Source: Nitrosomonas sp.
Lineage (GTDB): Bacteria; Pseudomonadota; Gammaproteobacteria; Burkholderiales; Nitrosomonadaceae
DNA length: 64,000 bases
NCBI GenBank assembly: GCA_024281675.1
Contig: JAMXAG010000009.1
Location: 1 to 64,000 of the forward strand
Direction of reading: 5' to 3'
Both the position numbers and the translations under genes were made by a program. Below, piece by piece: positions 172 to 20,685 of this stretch (positions are counted from its first letter, which is position 1; each line of letters opens with the position of its first letter). Under the pieces are notes generated by a model that saw only the letters and a list, made by a program, of their open reading frames with translations, was not told the origin of the DNA and searched no databases.

Positions 172-804
172 CTAAATTCTTATTCTTCTTTTATTGTGCT
201 TGGTAAATCCGAAAATTAAACCTAAGCCTATCAGTAACATTGCATAGGTTTCAGGTTCCGGTACGGGACTTACGGGACTGATATTGGTAAAAAGGAAAGA
301 TTCGTCGTTATAATCAAGATCGCCTCCCCCGTAGATATCTTCAAATCCAATATATGTTCCAGCCGGAATGTGTTGAGCGGAATCTCCGTTATAAGAAGCC
401 GAATAAATGTGATTGGCATGATCGGCATTTTGGGATGTGTCTGAAGACCATGTATGTCCTGTATCAGATACATTTAATTGGAATGTCAGCGTATCTCCTG
501 CATTTACGTGTCCAAAAACGACATAATCACCAAAATTAGAAGTGTGGTTATTAAGCAAGCCAGATGATGATTCCGGAGTAATAACACCGTTTACCAACAA
601 TGAGACTGTATTCGTATAAGCTGCCGAGCTTCCTAAAAAATAAGCACCAATTTCTCCAGTGGCTGTGGCGGTAAAAGTATAGGTTTGTGTATTAACTGAT
701 CCCATATCAGGATATGAAACAAAATCTGCTTTTGCAGTAAATACTGAAAATGGGTTGGTTAGCAAAACAAGCGTAAGTGATATAAATTTGAACAGTTTTT
801 GCAT
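172..804 (-). CDS. PEP-CTERM exported protein with DUF4114-like domain
   Basis: A 210-residue secreted protein. It has an N-terminal signal peptide (about residues 1-27, ending in AKA). The middle is Ser/Thr/Asn/Gly-rich, with an acidic stretch near residues 155-172 (FEDIYGGGDLDYNDESF) typical of DUF4114 domains. The C-terminal sorting signal comprises a VPEPETYAM box, a hydrophobic helix and a basic KHNKRR tail. Known PEP-CTERM proteins are processed by exosortase (EpsH) and linked to exopolysaccharide or biofilm. No exosortase is in the window, so it must be encoded elsewhere. A GGAG motif lies about nine bases before the ATG. The molecular role is unknown. Confidence 0.85.
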   Translation of the reverse strand: MQKLFKFISLTLVLLTNPFSVFTAKADFVSYPDMGSVNTQTYTFTATATGEIGAYFLGSSAAYTNTVSLLVNGVITPESSSGLLNNHTSNFGDYVVFGHVNAGDTLTFQLNVSDTGHTWSSDTSQNADHANHIYSASYNGDSAQHIPAGTYIGFEDIYGGGDLDYNDESFLFTNISPVSPVPEPETYAMLLIGLGLIFGFTKHNKRRIRI

Positions 805-4636: not shown

Positions 4637-5068
4637 CTAAACATCTAATTTCATTTGATCGTAGCGCTCATCCTCTTGCTCTTGGTTGCGGATATATGCT
4701 CTGACTATCTCTTCATCAAGCCCAACCGTCGAAACAAAATACCCTCGAGCCCAAAAAACCTCACCAGTAAAATTCTTTACTCGACCTCCAAAGCGCCTCG
4801 CTATCGTAATTGCACTTTTCCCTTTGATATACCCCATTACGTTCGATACTGCATATTTCGGCGGAATACTGATGCACATGTGCACGTGATCCGCCATAAT
4901 GTGTCCTTCTACAATCTTCGCTTCCTTGTGTCCTGCAAGTTCGTGGAATATCTCGCCCAGATGCTTGCGCAACGCCCCAAATATCCGCTTCTTACGTTTC
5001 TTCGGAATGAATACCACATGGTACTTACAATCCCATCTTGTGTGAGTCAAACTCTGATACTCTTTCAT
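4637..5068 (-). CDS. tnpA: IS200/IS605-family Y1 transposase TnpA
   Basis: A 143-residue single-strand DNA transposase of HUH type. The HUH motif is visible as HVHM (about residues 61-64), preceded by HIMAD. The nucleophile is most likely the Tyr in AYIRNQEQ near residue 125. It cuts and rejoins the element's ends as single strands and inserts without duplicating the target. Length and motifs are complete, so it is probably active. Near its stop codon the DNA forms a GCCGCC/GGCGGC hairpin. Confidence 0.93.
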   Translation of the reverse strand: MKEYQSLTHTRWDCKYHVVFIPKKRKKRIFGALRKHLGEIFHELAGHKEAKIVEGHIMADHVHMCISIPPKYAVSNVMGYIKGKSAITIARRFGGRVKNFTGEVFWARGYFVSTVGLDEEIVRAYIRNQEQEDERYDQMKLDV

Positions 5069-5633: not shown

Positions 5634-6788
5634 CTATTGCACGCAAGAAGTATAAGTGCTTGGACAGGTAGTGCTTAATCCGCCGGCAGTTCGGTCTTTT
5701 TGTGCACTCCAGTTGAGCATCTCGAGTACTTTTTGATAGTACTTAGGATCGCGTGTCCAGAAAACGTAATTGGCTTTTAAATCATCTCTCAGAAAATTAA
5801 GTAATTCAGTTACAGTAGGTTCATGTCCGGAAGAATCATTTCTAGTATTTTCGTAATTATGGTGCATAACTGTAGGAGCTAACGGTATAATTCCTGAAAG
5901 TTTTGGATAATATGTGTATACGCCCGGGGGGGTATATTTTGTTCCCGGTGTCAATAATCCAGGTTCTTCAAGGTATGTGTCGGGATGACTAAGACCGCCC
6001 CCCATTTTCTTTAAAGTTTCTACTAATGGGGCAATAATCGGTCTCGGATAATTTACTGATTGCATCACCATGGTATTGGGAAAGGCTTTGCGAGCTTCTT
6101 GTAATACGATGTATAAGTTTTTATAGAAATCGTTAGTCTGAGTGCTCGTTACGGGATTCAATGGGGTACCCAAAGCTGTTTCAGACATTCCGATGCCTTC
6201 AAAATAAGGATGAGTGTTGTAACGTTTCCCAAGAGCGCGATATAACTCGGATAAACGATCACGAACCAGAGGGTTCCACATTTTCAAGTTTTCACCTTTA
6301 GGTTTGCTTTCACCATAGTGTGCAAAAGTAAAAATGCCCCCATCATACTCAGCACTTCTTAAATAAGTTGGAACATAGGTTGCTGAATTCACGCTAAAAG
6401 ATTTTGTTTGAATCATAATGACCAAACGTTTATTACGCTTTTGTAATTCCGCTAAATGCTTATCAATTGTTGCAAAATTATATTGACCCTTTGCGGTTTC
6501 AATGTCTCCCCACATATAACGAACTTGGATTCCTTGTAATGCTGGCGTATTTGTTAAATCTTTATATACTGCATCCATCATGTATTTAGGGTTGTTTTTT
6601 GCTCCGCCTAAAAGCTGATAGTAATGCCCGGGATGCCATTTAACTCCATCAGCGGCATGGATAATTCCTGAAGAAAACAGCAATGTGAAAATAAATATTG
6701 TTATAAATGCTATCTTAAGTTTATAATTAAAACCGTGAGGGGCCATCGCTAATGGGATAGTGGATGGAGACTTGAAGTTGGTTATCAT
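5634..6788 (-). CDS. Secreted TIM-barrel-like protein under c-di-GMP riboswitch, paralogue A
   Basis: A 384-residue exported protein with a signal peptide (hydrophobic core about 24-44, cleavage near IIHAA). The layout resembles a clan GH-A glycoside hydrolase: GQYNFATIDKHLAEL (barrel helix 1), RLVIMIQTKSF, then YFEGIGMSETALG, where Glu203 could be the acid/base. HPDTYLEEPG with Glu274/275 is a candidate nucleophile region, and FWTRDP near 343 is also present. The C-terminus has two Cys (TCPSTYTSC) that probably pair. No named family was recognised. The protein at 7627 shares roughly half its residues. The start is fixed by AAGGAGGAA eight bases before the ATG. A class I c-di-GMP riboswitch lies in the leader. 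Polysaccharide binding or cleavage is inferred, not shown. Confidence 0.75.
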   Translation of the reverse strand: MITNFKSPSTIPLAMAPHGFNYKLKIAFITIFIFTLLFSSGIIHAADGVKWHPGHYYQLLGGAKNNPKYMMDAVYKDLTNTPALQGIQVRYMWGDIETAKGQYNFATIDKHLAELQKRNKRLVIMIQTKSFSVNSATYVPTYLRSAEYDGGIFTFAHYGESKPKGENLKMWNPLVRDRLSELYRALGKRYNTHPYFEGIGMSETALGTPLNPVTSTQTNDFYKNLYIVLQEARKAFPNTMVMQSVNYPRPIIAPLVETLKKMGGGLSHPDTYLEEPGLLTPGTKYTPPGVYTYYPKLSGIIPLAPTVMHHNYENTRNDSSGHEPTVTELLNFLRDDLKANYVFWTRDPKYYQKVLEMLNWSAQKDRTAGGLSTTCPSTYTSCVQ

Positions 6789-6796
6789 AGAAATAA

Positions 6797-6830
6797 TTCC
6801 TCCTTAATGGTAGTAACAAAAAAGGAAGAA
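6797..6830 (-). promoter_or_regulatory. Possible Shine-Dalgarno-sequestering hairpin (expression platform)
   Basis: In the minus-strand transcript UUCUUCCUU (6822-6830) can pair with the ribosome binding site AAGGAGGAA (6797-6805). This gives nine consecutive pairs including one G-U, across a 16-base loop. It would hide the start region of the gene at 5634. Placed after the c-di-GMP aptamer, it is a plausible translational switch. Which ligand state frees the site cannot be decided by eye. Confidence 0.55.
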
Positions 6831-6904
6831 CTGCATTAGTACGCATCAGGGTCGTTTCTTGGAAGCACTAAAACAATACGGTGCTTATGAATCGAATGCG
6901 CTCT

Positions 6905-6979
6905 TGGCAGTCCTGCCATCATAGGGGGTTAGCCCGTTAGATCAGTGACTTTGCGCCCTCCGCTTTCGCAGAGTTTGCC
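6905..6979 (-). promoter_or_regulatory. Cyclic-di-GMP class I (GEMM) riboswitch aptamer
   Basis: Read on the minus strand, the segment opens with GGCAAAC. A GC-rich hairpin with a GAAA tetraloop follows (CTCTGC-GAAA-GCGGAG), then the hallmark GCGCAAAGTCA strand, a second hairpin with CTAACGGG, and a closing GGACTGCC that pairs with the opening GGCA. These are the conserved parts of the GEMM-I aptamer: P1, the tetraloop helix and the CGCAAAG joint. It sits 116 bases before the start codon of the secreted protein at 5634, in the same orientation. It should therefore couple that gene to c-di-GMP. Confidence 0.87.
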
Positions 6980-7147
6980 TTTTTAATACAACATCAATGT
7001 TTAATTGATAAATTTCAGTTGTATCTTAAGCAAGCATAAAATCTTAAATAGGCATTAACTCAAAAGATCATTTAATCAAAATGCCGCTTTGCATTGATCA
7101 ACTACGCAACATCTGATAAGTTTTCTGTTGTCTGCTGATACCTATTT

Positions 7148-7197
7148 CTCAGAATGCAATGACCTATCACATTCTGAGCTATCATATTAGCTGATAG
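7148..7197. repeat. Two adjacent inverted repeats in the divergent gap
   Basis: CTCAGAATG (7148-7156) and CATTCTGAG (7170-7178) form a 9-bp perfect inverted repeat. CTATCA (7179-7184) and TGATAG (7192-7197) follow at once. The motif CCTATCA/TGATAGG recurs in the cluster. The 838-bp gap between the two paralogous secreted-protein genes otherwise holds only the riboswitch leader and AT-rich DNA. A regulator site is possible; no T-run supports a terminator. Confidence 0.5.
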
Positions 7198-7626
7198 GAT
7201 GTCGGCTCTAGGGTGTGAAAAATAGGGAAAATATGGGTCATTTTAGAATGATCTTAGGAAGTTGAAGTGGGTTTGGCTGCATGATTTAAAAGCTTTGGGT
7301 CGTGAGATATGTTATTGATTATGAATAATAATATACTCATGCTAAGTTGCTTGAGGCGAGCTCGATTAGGTATGCTTTAACCATTTTGAATGCTTATTAA
7401 AAAAGCAGAAAGAGTTGATGCAATAGCTACCAATAAATTCATTGTTACTTCGATAGATTTAGAGGTGCTTATTAAAGTAGGATCATTGATTACTAATTAA
7501 TTAGTGACGTATTTTCTCAGATGTGCGTATTGAAAATTCAATTAATTCTACCGTCCAAAAAAGATTCAGATTTTGGTTTATTTTGTTTCGATCAATTGAT
7601 TATTAGGTAAATTATATTTCTCAAAG

Positions 7627-8727
7627 ATGATCACGCATACCCGGAAGTGTTCCTTTTGGAAATCAATGTTGATTCTAGTCATTGTACTCATCCCTTTTCA
7701 AACAGTCTTTGCAAGCGATGGTGTTAAATGGCATCCAGGGCACTATTATGCAACGATGGGGCACGGCAAAAATAATCCTGCCTATATGAAAAATGTTTAT
7801 GTGGAACTTGAACAAACACGTGCGCTACGGGGATTACAAGTTCGATATGCTTGGGCAGAATTAGAGGTTTCTGAAGGGGTATATAACTTTGCACCCATCG
7901 ATGCTATTCTTAATGAATTAGCAAAAAGAGGAAAACGTCTTTTTATTCTGATACAAACAAAATCGTTTAATCTGAACTTTAAATCTGTGCCGGATTATTT
8001 AAAAGCCGAAAAATATGAGAATGGCACCTACATTTTCGTGACTTACGGAGAGAAAAAACCAAAAGGTGAAAATATTAAATTATGGAACCCATTGGTTCGC
8101 GACCGTTTGATTGCCTTGTTTCGAGCACTTGGGGAGCGTTACAATGCACATCCTTATTTTGAAGGGATCGGATTACCCGAAACGGCGCTAGGAGAACCAT
8201 TAGCAAAATTTACCACAACTGAAACAGATCAATTTTTTGCGAATCTTCTGGCTGTGCATCAAGCAATGCGCCAATCCTTTCCCAACACTGTTACATTACA
8301 ATCTGTCAATCATCCTAGATCAATTCTCAAATCATTTACAGATAGAATGAAAACAATAGGAACGGCACTAAGTGGACCAGATATTTTTCTTGAAGACCCA
8401 GCGATGAATGCGCCAGAAACCAAAAATACCAGTAAGGGAATTTATCATTATTATCCGGAGCTTTCTGGAATTGTTCCGATAGCACCTTCTGTGATGCAAT
8501 CCAATTACGCAATGACACAGCACAATAAAGAGACTAGAGAACCTTCAATTCACGAATTACTTTCATTTGCGAAAAATAATTTGAAAGCTAATTATATTAT
8601 TTGGACTCGGGAGCCCAAATATTTTTCTAGATTGTTGCAGGTTTTAAACGAGCCGGACCAGACAAGAGAACCTTCAGGCGGGCTAATAGCAACTTGCCCA
8701 AAAGCGTTTAGATCATGTAAGAATTAA
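7627..8727 (+). CDS. Secreted TIM-barrel-like protein, paralogue B
   Basis: A 366-residue paralogue of the protein at 5634, divergently transcribed. It has a signal peptide (core about 13-29, cleavage near VFAS). It shares DGVKWHPGHYY, GLQVRYAWAE, LIQTKSF, KPKGEN..WNPLVRDRL and HPYFEGIGLPETALG, where Glu185 matches Glu203 of paralogue A. A C-terminal Cys pair (TCPKAFRSC) is also shared. No c-di-GMP aptamer is visible in its own 5' region and the ribosome binding site is weak, so the two copies look differently controlled. The fold is inferred as a glycoside-hydrolase-like barrel; the substrate is unknown. Confidence 0.72.
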   Translation: MITHTRKCSFWKSMLILVIVLIPFQTVFASDGVKWHPGHYYATMGHGKNNPAYMKNVYVELEQTRALRGLQVRYAWAELEVSEGVYNFAPIDAILNELAKRGKRLFILIQTKSFNLNFKSVPDYLKAEKYENGTYIFVTYGEKKPKGENIKLWNPLVRDRLIALFRALGERYNAHPYFEGIGLPETALGEPLAKFTTTETDQFFANLLAVHQAMRQSFPNTVTLQSVNHPRSILKSFTDRMKTIGTALSGPDIFLEDPAMNAPETKNTSKGIYHYYPELSGIVPIAPSVMQSNYAMTQHNKETREPSIHELLSFAKNNLKANYIIWTREPKYFSRLLQVLNEPDQTREPSGGLIATCPKAFRSCKN

Positions 8728-17464: not shown

Positions 17465-17790
17465 ACAATAGCAACCTGTGAATAAAGTAAAAAAGCGTAC
17501 TCAGAAAATTTACTGCTTACTTCTGAATTATTATGAAAATGCGGATTTTACCGCAATGTAACTGAGATGTACGAAAAGGAGTAGCGTTTGTTTAGCTTAA
17601 ACTTAAAGCAACTGTCCCAGTTAAATCGGCTATTGTAACTTTGACTATGTATTGTTAGAAGATAGTTAAGATTTTTTTATGTAGTTGTTAATTAAATATA
17701 TATGTTGTGTTAATCTCATCTGCTGCATACTGCTGTAATAGATATATTCGGGATAAGCTTTTAATCACATACAAGGATGAATGCTTAACG
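17465..17790. other. Divergent intergenic region sdaA / GGDEF-EAL gene
   Basis: AT-rich spacer of 326 bases holding the promoters for both genes. A reading frame continuous with the downstream gene extends up to 17707, but it lacks a ribosome site. No riboswitch, repeat or RNA gene was recognised. Confidence 0.5.
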
Positions 17791-20685
17791 ATGAAACCAG
17801 ATTTGGATCACTTACTCAATCAACATTCCGCTGATTTTGAGGTGCGTGATAAGCGTTTTGATGATTTTATCAAAAGTGTTCCTGGTGTTGTTTTTGAGTT
17901 TTGTGTTGATGAAGAGAGACATCGATCATTACCTTTTATTAGTGAAGGTGTTGCTGATTTGATTGGTTATTCCGCAGCTGAATGTATGGCCAATGTAGAA
18001 ATTATTTTTGATAAGATTTCTCCAGAATTTATTCCAGCTTTAGAAGCTTCCATGGAAAATTCTTTAGAGAGATTAGTACCGTGGATTTATGAGTATCCTA
18101 TTGAAACATCAAGCGGCGAAAAATGGATATGGAGTTATTCTATCCCGCAACGCAATAAAAATGGAGTGACTTGTTGGCGTGGCGTTATTGTTGATATCAC
18201 CCAACAAAAAAATATTGAAAAAGCTTTGCGCGACAATGAGCAGCTTTTTCGCAGCGTAGCAGAGGTGGCACCCATCGGTATCTTTCGAGCCGATGCCACA
18301 GGGGAATATGTTTACGTGAATGAACGGTGGTGTGAAATTGCTAATATGTGCGATGAAATGGTGTTGGGATCCGCGTGGATTAACTGCGTTCATCCCGACG
18401 ACAGGAAGCGTGTTATATCTGAATGGCGTAATACCGTGCAGCAACAAAGGCAATTTGTCTCGGAATACCGATTTCAAACTCAGCAGCAAAAAATCAAATG
18501 GATCGTTGGTCGCGCGCAAATCGAGCGTGATCGCCGAGGAAATGTGCTGGGTTATGTAGGTACTATTGCGGATATTACCGACCGGAAGATGAAGGAGGTA
18601 GCGTTGGCCGAGTCTCGTAATCTCCTGGAAACGATTATTGATACAGCTCCCGTTCGAATTTTCTGGAAAGATAATGAATTAAACTATATCGGTTGTAACT
18701 TGGCTTTTGCTAAGGATAATGGGGCGGAATCGATGCAGCAAATTATTGGTAAAAATGACTATGATTTGCATTGCAAAAAGCATGCAGATATTTATCGAAC
18801 TGATGACCGCCAGGTAATTGATACAGGCCTGTCAAAGTTAGCTTATGAAGAACCTCGTAATTCGCCCGATGGAAGAATTCTGTGGCAAAGAACATCGAAA
18901 GTACCGTTGCGGAATCACCACAATGAAATTATTGGTGTGTTGGGAACCTATCAGGATATCACTAAAGAAAAACATACCTACGATTCGATGCGTTTGGCTG
19001 CAACCATTTACCAATCGAGTAACGAAGCGATTATGGTAGCCGATGAAAATGATTTGATTATACAAATAAATCCAGCTTTTACACGAATGACAGGGTATAC
19101 CTTGACGGATGTTCAAGGTAAAAGTCCGGAGTTTTTGCGTTCTGATTGCCATGATGCCGATTTTTATCAAGAAATACGCCGAACACTTTTTAACGATGAT
19201 CATTGGCAGGGTGAAATCTGGGATAAACATAAAGACGGTACGCTGCATGCAAAATGGGTCAGCATTAGTGTGATTCGCCACAAAGATAATCGCATTCATT
19301 ATTATGTATCGCAATTTACCGATATCACCGAAAAGAAAAAGAAAGATGAACTGCTTTTGTTCCAGGCGAATTACGATTCGCTGACTGGATTACCGAATCG
19401 TAATTTATTTAAAGATCGGCTCGAGATGAAAATCCAAGAATCCCGGAAGAATGGTTCATTGCTGGCATTATTGTTTCTGGATTTAGACCATTTTAAAGAT
19501 ATCAATGACACCTTGGGTCATGATAAAGGCGATGAATTATTAAAACAAGTTGCTATCCGCATCAAGGGTTGTATTACGGAGCAGGATACCGTAGCCCGTT
19601 TGGGGGGGGACGAGTTTGCCGTAATTTTATCAACGATCGTTGATCGTACGCAGATCAGATTGATCGCGCAGAATATTATCCAGAGTTTGAACGAGCCTTT
19701 TAACTTTGATCGCAGCCAAACGGATTATTATATTTCGACCAGTATTGGGATCGTATTTTATCCAGATGATGGCATGCAGATGAAAACGCTGATGAAGCAC
19801 GCCGATCAAGCGATGTATGCTGCGAAGCACGAGGGACGTAATCGTTTTTCGTATTTTACCCCGTCCATGCAACGCGAAGCGCATGAAAAAATGATATTAA
19901 TTCGTGACTTGCGTCAGGCCATCGAGAAAAATGAGTTGCAAGTGTACTATCAACCGATCATCGATTTGTCGAGTGGCCGTTTTGTGAAAGGGGAAGCGTT
20001 GGTGCGTTGGGATCATCGGCGTAGAGGGTTAGTTAGTCCAGCCGTTTTTATTCCGCTGGCGGAAGAGAGTGGTTTGATCTTAGAAGTGGGTGACGCTGTA
20101 TTTAAACATGTCATTGCATTGATTCAGCAGTGTTCTGAGAGGTGGGGGTATGATGTGCAGATCAGCGTCAATATGTCACCGCTACAGTTTAAATTTATGA
20201 ATAAATTTAGCTGGTTAGAAGAACTGGAACGGCTCGGATTGCCAGGTAACTGTATCAATGTTGAAATTACCGAAAGTCTTTTATTAAAGGATTCATCGGT
20301 CGTTCAAGAGCATCTACTCGAGTTCCGCAATAATGGTATTGAAGTATCGATCGATGATTTTGGTACGGGTTTTTCGTCATTGTCCTACCTCAAGAAGTTT
20401 GATATTGACTATTTAAAGATAGATCGGACTTTTATTAATCAATTGATGGAGAATGAAACCGACCGTACTTTGGTCGAGGCGATTATTGTGATGGCGCATA
20501 AGCTCAATATTAAAACTGTTGCAGAGGGAGTTGAAACAAAAGCGCAACAGGAATTATTAATGCATCTCGGATGTGATTATGGACAAGGTTTTTTATATTC
20601 GCAGCCCGTTAAGGCAAAGGCGTTTGAGAAATTATTGATGGATAACAATAATTATATATTTTTGCCCAAACACTTTGCACATTAA
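17791..20685 (+). CDS. Four-PAS diguanylate cyclase / c-di-GMP phosphodiesterase
   Basis: A 964-residue sensor enzyme of cyclic-di-GMP turnover. The N-terminal half has four PAS/PAC modules (about 20-150, 150-270, 270-395 and 395-530), each ending in a PAC-like motif such as GVIVDITQQK or YVGTIADITDRK. The GGDEF domain follows with an intact RLGGDEFAVIL near residue 604. The EAL domain has EALVRW near 734, NMSPLQF, DDFGTGFSSLSYLKKF, KIDRTFI and EGVET, so both activities look possible. No transmembrane segment is evident, so it is probably cytosolic. The start at Met 17791 is chosen by similarity of length; AAGGA lies 13 bases upstream. Other frames upstream exist but lack support. Confidence 0.93.
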   Translation: MKPDLDHLLNQHSADFEVRDKRFDDFIKSVPGVVFEFCVDEERHRSLPFISEGVADLIGYSAAECMANVEIIFDKISPEFIPALEASMENSLERLVPWIYEYPIETSSGEKWIWSYSIPQRNKNGVTCWRGVIVDITQQKNIEKALRDNEQLFRSVAEVAPIGIFRADATGEYVYVNERWCEIANMCDEMVLGSAWINCVHPDDRKRVISEWRNTVQQQRQFVSEYRFQTQQQKIKWIVGRAQIERDRRGNVLGYVGTIADITDRKMKEVALAESRNLLETIIDTAPVRIFWKDNELNYIGCNLAFAKDNGAESMQQIIGKNDYDLHCKKHADIYRTDDRQVIDTGLSKLAYEEPRNSPDGRILWQRTSKVPLRNHHNEIIGVLGTYQDITKEKHTYDSMRLAATIYQSSNEAIMVADENDLIIQINPAFTRMTGYTLTDVQGKSPEFLRSDCHDADFYQEIRRTLFNDDHWQGEIWDKHKDGTLHAKWVSISVIRHKDNRIHYYVSQFTDITEKKKKDELLLFQANYDSLTGLPNRNLFKDRLEMKIQESRKNGSLLALLFLDLDHFKDINDTLGHDKGDELLKQVAIRIKGCITEQDTVARLGGDEFAVILSTIVDRTQIRLIAQNIIQSLNEPFNFDRSQTDYYISTSIGIVFYPDDGMQMKTLMKHADQAMYAAKHEGRNRFSYFTPSMQREAHEKMILIRDLRQAIEKNELQVYYQPIIDLSSGRFVKGEALVRWDHRRRGLVSPAVFIPLAEESGLILEVGDAVFKHVIALIQQCSERWGYDVQISVNMSPLQFKFMNKFSWLEELERLGLPGNCINVEITESLLLKDSSVVQEHLLEFRNNGIEVSIDDFGTGFSSLSYLKKFDIDYLKIDRTFINQLMENETDRTLVEAIIVMAHKLNIKTVAEGVETKAQQELLMHLGCDYGQGFLYSQPVKAKAFEKLLMDNNNYIFLPKHFAH

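Follow-up and report, generated by a model that had tools for sequence, protein, structure and literature searches.

The closest described relatives of the RNA considered here are c-di-GMP riboswitches of class I (GEMM-I). In Cd1, the switch of the flgB operon of Clostridioides difficile, an antiterminator pairs with the ligand-binding C87, and the outcome is a transcriptional OFF switch (PMC9262584). In the same species zmpI, whose product is a protease that releases surface proteins, is negatively regulated by a class I c-di-GMP switch (PMC6366702). The Vc2 aptamer of Vibrio cholerae contacts its ligand through G20, A47 and C92 (PMC4744006). We compare with these systems an aptamer of the same class in Nitrosomonas. 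What is added is which way it probably switches and by what mechanism, what its target is likely to be, and an arrangement of promoter, aptamer and platform that is probably shared across the genus and precedes secreted enzyme-like genes of more than one kind.

The aptamer and the gene behind it

The DNA analysed is a stretch of 64,000 nt, called the window below. A first-pass annotation had placed a GEMM-I aptamer on its minus strand on the strength of GGCAAAC, a GAAA loop and GCGCAAAG. All three are present in the leader, and a covariance-model search agrees with the class: RF01051 matches 6989-6903 over all 87 of its positions with 78.9 bits (E 7.5e-14; gathering score 35 bits), and a local scan gives the same aptamer with E 1.3e-15. 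The span originally proposed, 6797-6979, stops a little before the 5' end of the RNA, which lies at 6989. At gathering score this is the sole cis-regulatory Rfam match within the 64 kb, and it is the only RF01051 match across the 2.81 Mb assembly. The overall stability of the 231-nt leader is unexceptional (z -1.67; 15 of 200 shuffles are at least as stable).

In the RF01051 alignment the GAAA tetraloop is found on P2. By our own numbering, with which G11 in PMC9262584 agrees, the Vc2 residues G20, A47 and C92 would correspond to model positions 11, 38 and 83. In the window these are G (6979), A (6952) and C (6907), and among the 150 family aptamers listed the same letters stand in 148, 150 and 149, respectively. 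As far as its sequence goes, the window aptamer is a typical representative of a riboswitch class already known, and c-di-GMP binding is predicted.

If the RNA sensed another dinucleotide instead, 3',3'-cGAMP would be the obvious example, being sensed by GEMM-I variants in Geobacter (PMC8835794). The position that guides ligand selectivity is the equivalent of position 11 (PMC9262584), and the G found there in the window and in nearly all of its relatives argues against such a ligand, as do the many genes for c-di-GMP turnover domains in the genome (18 GGDEF and 14 EAL matches). We hold a ligand other than c-di-GMP to be very improbable. Two of the 150 family aptamers listed, L147 (G058:C26:40607-40693) and L209 (G123:C39:5007), have A rather than G at position 11. 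Such an A, we presume, marks aptamers of the cGAMP type. About 11 kb from the riboswitch, an open frame at 17707-20685 (plus strand) has one GGDEF and one EAL domain (G000:C11:19366 and 19903), and its product is likely a c-di-GMP turnover protein.

Features of the riboswitch locus in the window
Feature	Positions	Strand	Basis
GEMM-I / c-di-GMP-I aptamer	6903..6989	-	RF01051, model positions 1-87
Expression platform, aptamer to start codon, 114 nt	6789..6902	-	sequence; platform can be aligned across 56 leaders
Anti-Shine-Dalgarno UUCUUCCUU, helix ii 5' arm	6822..6830	-	sequence; 2/100 shuffles as strong
Shine-Dalgarno AAGGAGGAA, helix ii 3' arm	6797..6805	-	sequence
Aptamer 3' segment AGGACUGC, helix iii 5' arm (anti-anti-SD)	6907..6914	-	duplex energy, folding, shuffles
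GCAGUUCU, helix iii 3' arm, overlaps anti-SD	6827..6834	-	duplex, conservation, folding by length
GCGCAU, helix iv 5' arm	6896..6901	-	predicted folds; partner AUGCGU 6846-6841
AUGCGU, helix iv 3' arm	6841..6846	-	predicted folds
Regulated gene, predicted 384-aa secreted glycoside-hydrolase-like TIM-barrel protein	5634..6788	-	ORF; profiles; AlphaFold model
Divergent paralogue, 53% identical, without own aptamer	7627..8727	+	comparison, aptamer scan

The product of the regulated gene had been called a secreted protein of unknown function. This can be narrowed, with the help of profiles and an AlphaFold model, to a secreted, likely glycoside-hydrolase-like TIM barrel, its activity being a prediction; we assign it to no named glycoside-hydrolase family. 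With Pfam Glyco_hydro_42 (PF02449) the protein scores 18.7 bits, short of the gathering score of 21, and its paralogue 21.2; with NCBIfam GH35_fam (NF051902) it scores 25.8 bits against a curated cut-off of 500. The model (pLDDT 87.6) resembles beta-amylase and the barrels of GH35 and GH42, and has the TIM-barrel fold of GH14, GH35 and GH42. In such barrels the catalytic carboxylates are expected behind strands 4 and 7. By our own strand count E203 follows the fourth barrel strand, and in a set of 32 sequences its conservation is at least 90%. After the seventh strand come N311 and Y312, with no conserved acid directly there; the sixth is followed by D270, for which conservation again reaches at least 90%. 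PslG has a profile similarity to the target of only E 0.5 and is absent from the best 50 structural matches listed, which is no argument against kinship.

The target had also been considered unusual for this riboswitch. Literature searches, with subscription papers and preprints outside their scope, indeed returned nothing that links a c-di-GMP riboswitch with a glycoside hydrolase, and nothing on c-di-GMP riboswitches in Nitrosomonas. Within the family, however, this is the commonest downstream gene (43 of the 150 aptamers listed). In the genome of the window one of three copies of the target has an aptamer; no second or degenerate aptamer was found for the paralogue at 7627 or for the third copy, on contig 27. 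A search for a sigma-70 promoter of the window gene gave four matches on both strands against 4.0 expected by chance, and none is called. Two neighbours may be mentioned: a gene for an IS200-like (Y1) transposase, which lies downstream of the target (4637-5068, minus strand) and, nearby, one for a PEP-CTERM protein (172-804, minus strand).

Competing helices and the predicted direction of the switch

The hairpin proposed to sequester the Shine-Dalgarno (SD) sequence withstands closer inspection. In helix ii UUCUUCCUU and AAGGAGGAA form nine contiguous pairs, one of them U.G, with the SD 8 nt from the ATG at 6788. The complement is worth -12.9 kcal/mol, a strength reached by 2 of 100 dinucleotide-shuffled versions of the window leader, and the hairpin recurs in relatives. 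The translational mode suggested for the switch also holds computationally, since no terminator-like site lies in 6600-7700, where 0.7 would be expected; this speaks against transcription termination for the window gene. What had been overlooked is a third helix, helix iii, in which, according to predicted energies, the 3' strand of the aptamer can pair with the 5' half of the anti-SD. AGGACUGC and GCAGUUCU give a duplex of 8 bp and -11.2 kcal/mol, matched in 3 of 100 shuffled platforms, and the C at 6907, the equivalent of the ligand-pairing C, sits inside its 5' arm.

The aptamer with its SD-hairpin platform recurs before two unrelated gene families of Nitrosomonadaceae. Among the 150 leaders listed, 61 fit our SD-motif rule, and removal of five with a differing anchor or spacing leaves 56 with a common platform: 42 before glycosidase-like genes, 13 before lyase-like genes and one without a called gene. 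The proximal pairs of helix ii form in 55-56 of the 56, the distal four in 54. Helix iii joins aptamer positions 77-83 (GGACUGC) with GCAGUUC just before and within the anti-SD; its pairs form in 54-56 leaders at six positions and in 50 at position 81, a count that is conditional on the platform side because the leaders were selected partly by the anchor motif.

Some of the changes in these helices are paired and occur in separate sequences. In helix ii a C-G to U-A change gives the SD AAGGAAGAA in two leaders, and CCUU/AAGG has become UCUU/AAGA in two leaders. In helix iii a U-A to C-G change at position 81 is seen in two leaders, both of which lose the pair at position 83. With their own partners the strands of helix ii score -11.14 against -10.74 with permuted ones (19 of 2000 permutations as good), those of helix iii -9.84 against -9.51 (61 of 2000). 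Helix iii is nearly invariant, so that its support from covariation is thin. An unrepaired C.A mismatch at position 81 occurs in six of the 56 leaders, which are the upstream members of tandem arrangements. Pairs of tandem aptamers stand before one gene in six genomes (L237, L238, L235, L244, L246, L242). In the upstream aptamers position 81 is C. Each of them belongs to a unit with a platform and an SD of its own, in which five or six codons separate a start from a stop, rather like a relic of a lost gene.

A looser rule found the start in 119 leaders. In this wider set the best complements of the aptamer 3' strand and of the SD are no more than 12 nt apart in 41 of 42 glycosidase-like and 13 of 13 lyase-like leaders, and in 17 of 24 subtilase and 4 of 9 PEP-CTERM leaders. 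No more than 5 of 100 shuffles match the SD complement in 38 of 42, 11 of 13, 10 of 24 and 0 of 9 of the same four groups. By that measure helix iii beats its shuffles in just 15 of 42 glycosidase-like and 6 of 13 lyase-like leaders; the idea that it is significant in each leader taken alone is rejected. Some subtilase leaders of another genus of the family carry a G+C-richer platform, for example GGUUCCGCCUCC with GAGGAGGAAC, which appears from its letters to be a further set of paired changes. An SD hairpin is rejected for the leaders of the 295-aa PEP-CTERM proteins, none of the nine scoring above chance; since they lack it, they probably switch differently and use a different platform. C in place of G at position 12 is seen in 17 of the 150 family aptamers listed, among them those shown for the 295-aa PEP-CTERM protein (for example L213, L214, L215 and L217).

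Folding of the window leader at increasing transcript length suggests an order of events. Before the anchor emerges, the aptamer helix P3 has a probability of 0.33-0.93 (0.92 at 153 nt, 0.83 at 159). From 165 to 189 nt helix iii rises from 0.87 to 0.99 and P3 falls from 0.10 to 0.00-0.01, the end values being those of lengths 171-189. From 195 nt, with the SD out, helix ii reaches 0.98-0.99 and P3 returns to 0.81-0.82. Across the 56 leaders P3 exceeds 0.5 before the anchor in 34, helix iii averages 0.81 in the middle stage (above 0.5 in 49), helix ii averages 0.79 in the final stage (above 0.5 in 50), and at full length helix iii exceeds 0.5 in three. At equilibrium and without ligand the full-length window RNA has helix ii at 0.98 and the SD unpaired at 0.01. 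Forcing helix iii costs 3.4 kcal/mol in the window leader and leaves the SD unpaired at 0.44; the cost averages 2.6 across 55 leaders, in seven of which it is zero, and the unpaired SD there goes from 0.08 to 0.39. All these energies leave out the ligand and tertiary contacts.

Vc1 is activated by c-di-GMP, and the direction of the present switch cannot, therefore, follow from its class alone. The arrangement of the helices is more informative. Predictions and conservation point to an SD hairpin that is compatible with the folded aptamer and to an excluding alternative helix, as expected of an OFF switch. Helix iii uses both the aptamer 3' strand and the anti-SD, which makes the folded aptamer and a free SD mutually exclusive. 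The ligand holds P3 and position 83 and can favour only helix ii over helix iii, which again predicts OFF. Since the equilibrium fold hides the SD even without ligand, control has to be assumed kinetic, exerted before or as ribosomes load. Taken together, we find it fairly probable that this is a translational OFF switch, decided co-transcriptionally, which controls the secreted glycoside-hydrolase-like gene.

On this model, if no ligand is present, GCAGUUCU, the 5' half of the anti-SD, would capture the aptamer 3' strand AGGACUGC, the ligand-pairing C included, as it emerges. The aptamer would be broken, the SD that is made later would be only weakly held, and a ribosome could bind. If c-di-GMP is bound, the aptamer would retain its 3' strand, the free anti-SD would pair with AAGGAGGAA and translation would be blocked. 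Because the product is secreted and resembles glycoside hydrolases, low c-di-GMP would then lead to the release of a matrix-modifying enzyme. Probably the switch shuts off secreted matrix-degrading proteins at high c-di-GMP in relatives within the genus too.

Could the same aptamer and platform make an ON switch, for instance through an unseen partner of the anti-SD? Switches of class I can have either sign, Vc1 being an activating one (PMC4744006), and V. cholerae has two with opposite signs, neither of which acts by termination (PMC6366702). Yet the sole conserved competitor that we found for the pairing of anti-SD and SD uses the aptamer 3' strand and is excluded when ligand is bound, so we take an ON switch to be unlikely. 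Another suggestion is that the hairpin simply keeps translation constitutively low, and that the aptamer acts otherwise (through mRNA stability or Rho access) or is weak in vivo. The equilibrium folds, which conceal the SD irrespective of ligand, would suit such a situation. It is harder to reconcile with the co-occurrence of aptamer and platform in 56 leaders, with some of the paired changes, which keep the hairpins, and with key aptamer positions that are near-invariant in 150 copies; we give this possibility little credence. An OFF switch by way of helix iii is the reading that we retain below.

Distribution in the family and a possible cassette

Of 125 genomes of the family, 98 have an RF01051 match and 36 encode the target protein, one genome having as many as 14 copies. 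Each of the 43 aptamers before target homologues is upstream of its homologue, at a distance of 108-499 nt from the part that was matched. The protein copies served by these aptamers number 37 among the 150 listed (of 178), in 27 of the 32 genomes compared. We picked downstream frames mechanically, clustered them and ran Pfam on one member each of eight groups. Among the 150 matches listed, the glycosidase-like gene is thus the commonest behind the aptamer in this family, followed by S8 subtilases (32), the 295-aa PEP-CTERM proteins (15), polysaccharide-lyase-like proteins (13), right-handed beta-helix proteins (8) and others; for two matches there is no open frame close enough. On a tree of 80 homologues the presence of the aptamer (26 rows) takes 11 changes, whereas shuffled labels take 22; branches with good support force nine of the 11. 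Aptamer presence is clustered on the tree, yet it has been gained or lost many times. Homologues of the target at 45-49% identity also occur in nitrite-oxidising Nitrospira (L123, L126, L128-L130, L133-L136) and in Niabella of the Bacteroidota (L131); no aptamer was found near them at 10 loci, within the available flanks. Transfer among biofilm partners is one reading of their presence there.

Upstream of many of these aptamers there is a further element, TGGCAY-N5-TTGC with GG-N10-GC, which we take to be the -24/-12 consensus of sigma-54. Such a site precedes the aptamer in 25 of 42 glycosidase-like and all 11 lyase-like leaders scanned, and in none of the 32 subtilase or 15 PEP-CTERM leaders; letter shuffles attain its score in about 1% of cases. 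It ends 11-24 nt before the aptamer, mostly 15-16 (as in L264, L266 and L265), so that, judging by its position, it would start transcription at the edge of the aptamer. Counted by homologue locus, 18 of 26 aptamer-bearing loci have the site against 0 of 53 aptamer-less ones, one locus with too short an upstream sequence being excluded. Of the 17 glycosidase-like leaders without the site, 12 belong to tandem aptamer pairs and four stand before the window gene and the three relatives closest to it. The window aptamer has no GG-N10-GC match in the 80 nt or the 200 nt upstream; a gene for RpoN is present in its genome.

Similarity between the gene groups extends beyond the platform as well. The coding sequences of glycosidase-like and lyase-like genes are identical at 0.56 of bases 4-18 (shuffled 0.36) and 0.38 of bases 19-33 (shuffled 0.29); identity stays above shuffled for roughly the first ten codons and is near background after about 60 bases. 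A weaker pattern of the same sort is seen against subtilases (0.52 against 0.33, 0.32 against 0.25). Upstream of the aptamer, glycosidase-like and lyase-like leaders are alike for about 40 bases and then fall to background. Between glycosidase-like and subtilase leaders shared upstream sequence is rejected, as the comparison is at background throughout.

A speculative suggestion can be made on how such a pattern might have arisen. A portable cassette, consisting of a sigma-54 promoter, the aptamer from whose 5' edge transcription starts, the SD-hiding platform and about the first ten codons, may have been placed repeatedly before unrelated genes for secreted depolymerases in ammonia-oxidising Nitrosomonas. 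If so, these genes would form a regulon whose expression requires both an active sigma-54 activator and low c-di-GMP, amounting to biofilm release run by RNA, of which the window gene would be a member without the sigma-54 part. We put this forward tentatively and would sooner bet against it than for it.

Comparison with known switches

Nitrifier biofilms underlie wastewater treatment. The RNA described here offers a testable link, in a single molecule, that would connect c-di-GMP in Nitrosomonas with secreted proteins of glycosidase-like, protease and lyase-like kinds, and the occurrence of one platform before different genes provides a natural series for studying how riboswitch cassettes spread.

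The predicted target shares the TIM-barrel fold of GH14, GH35 and GH42 enzymes and has weak profile similarity to GH42, GH35 and PslG. It differs from GH42 and GH35 in falling below the curated cut-offs, and by our strand count a conserved acid is not seen at one of the two usual catalytic positions.

As to the RNA, the window aptamer resembles Vc1 and Vc2 in its class, in its Gram-negative host, in a mode other than termination (PMC6366702) and in its ligand-contact residues (PMC4744006). The likeness is one of aptamers, and Vc1 activates gbpA, unlike what we predict for the window gene. With the ZmpI switch the proposal shares its biological logic, since in both low c-di-GMP would favour release; organism, enzyme and mode are different, ZmpI being controlled transcriptionally. 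In its proposed mechanism the locus comes close to Cd1. Both have a class I aptamer, in both an alternative strand takes the ligand-binding C and would break the pocket, and in both aptamer and OFF hairpin can coexist (PMC9262584). The OFF hairpin of Cd1 terminates transcription and serves flagella, whereas that of the window is predicted to hide a Shine-Dalgarno sequence before a glycosidase-like gene. If the OFF reading is correct, Nitrosomonas would possess a conserved translational counterpart of the Cd1 switch.
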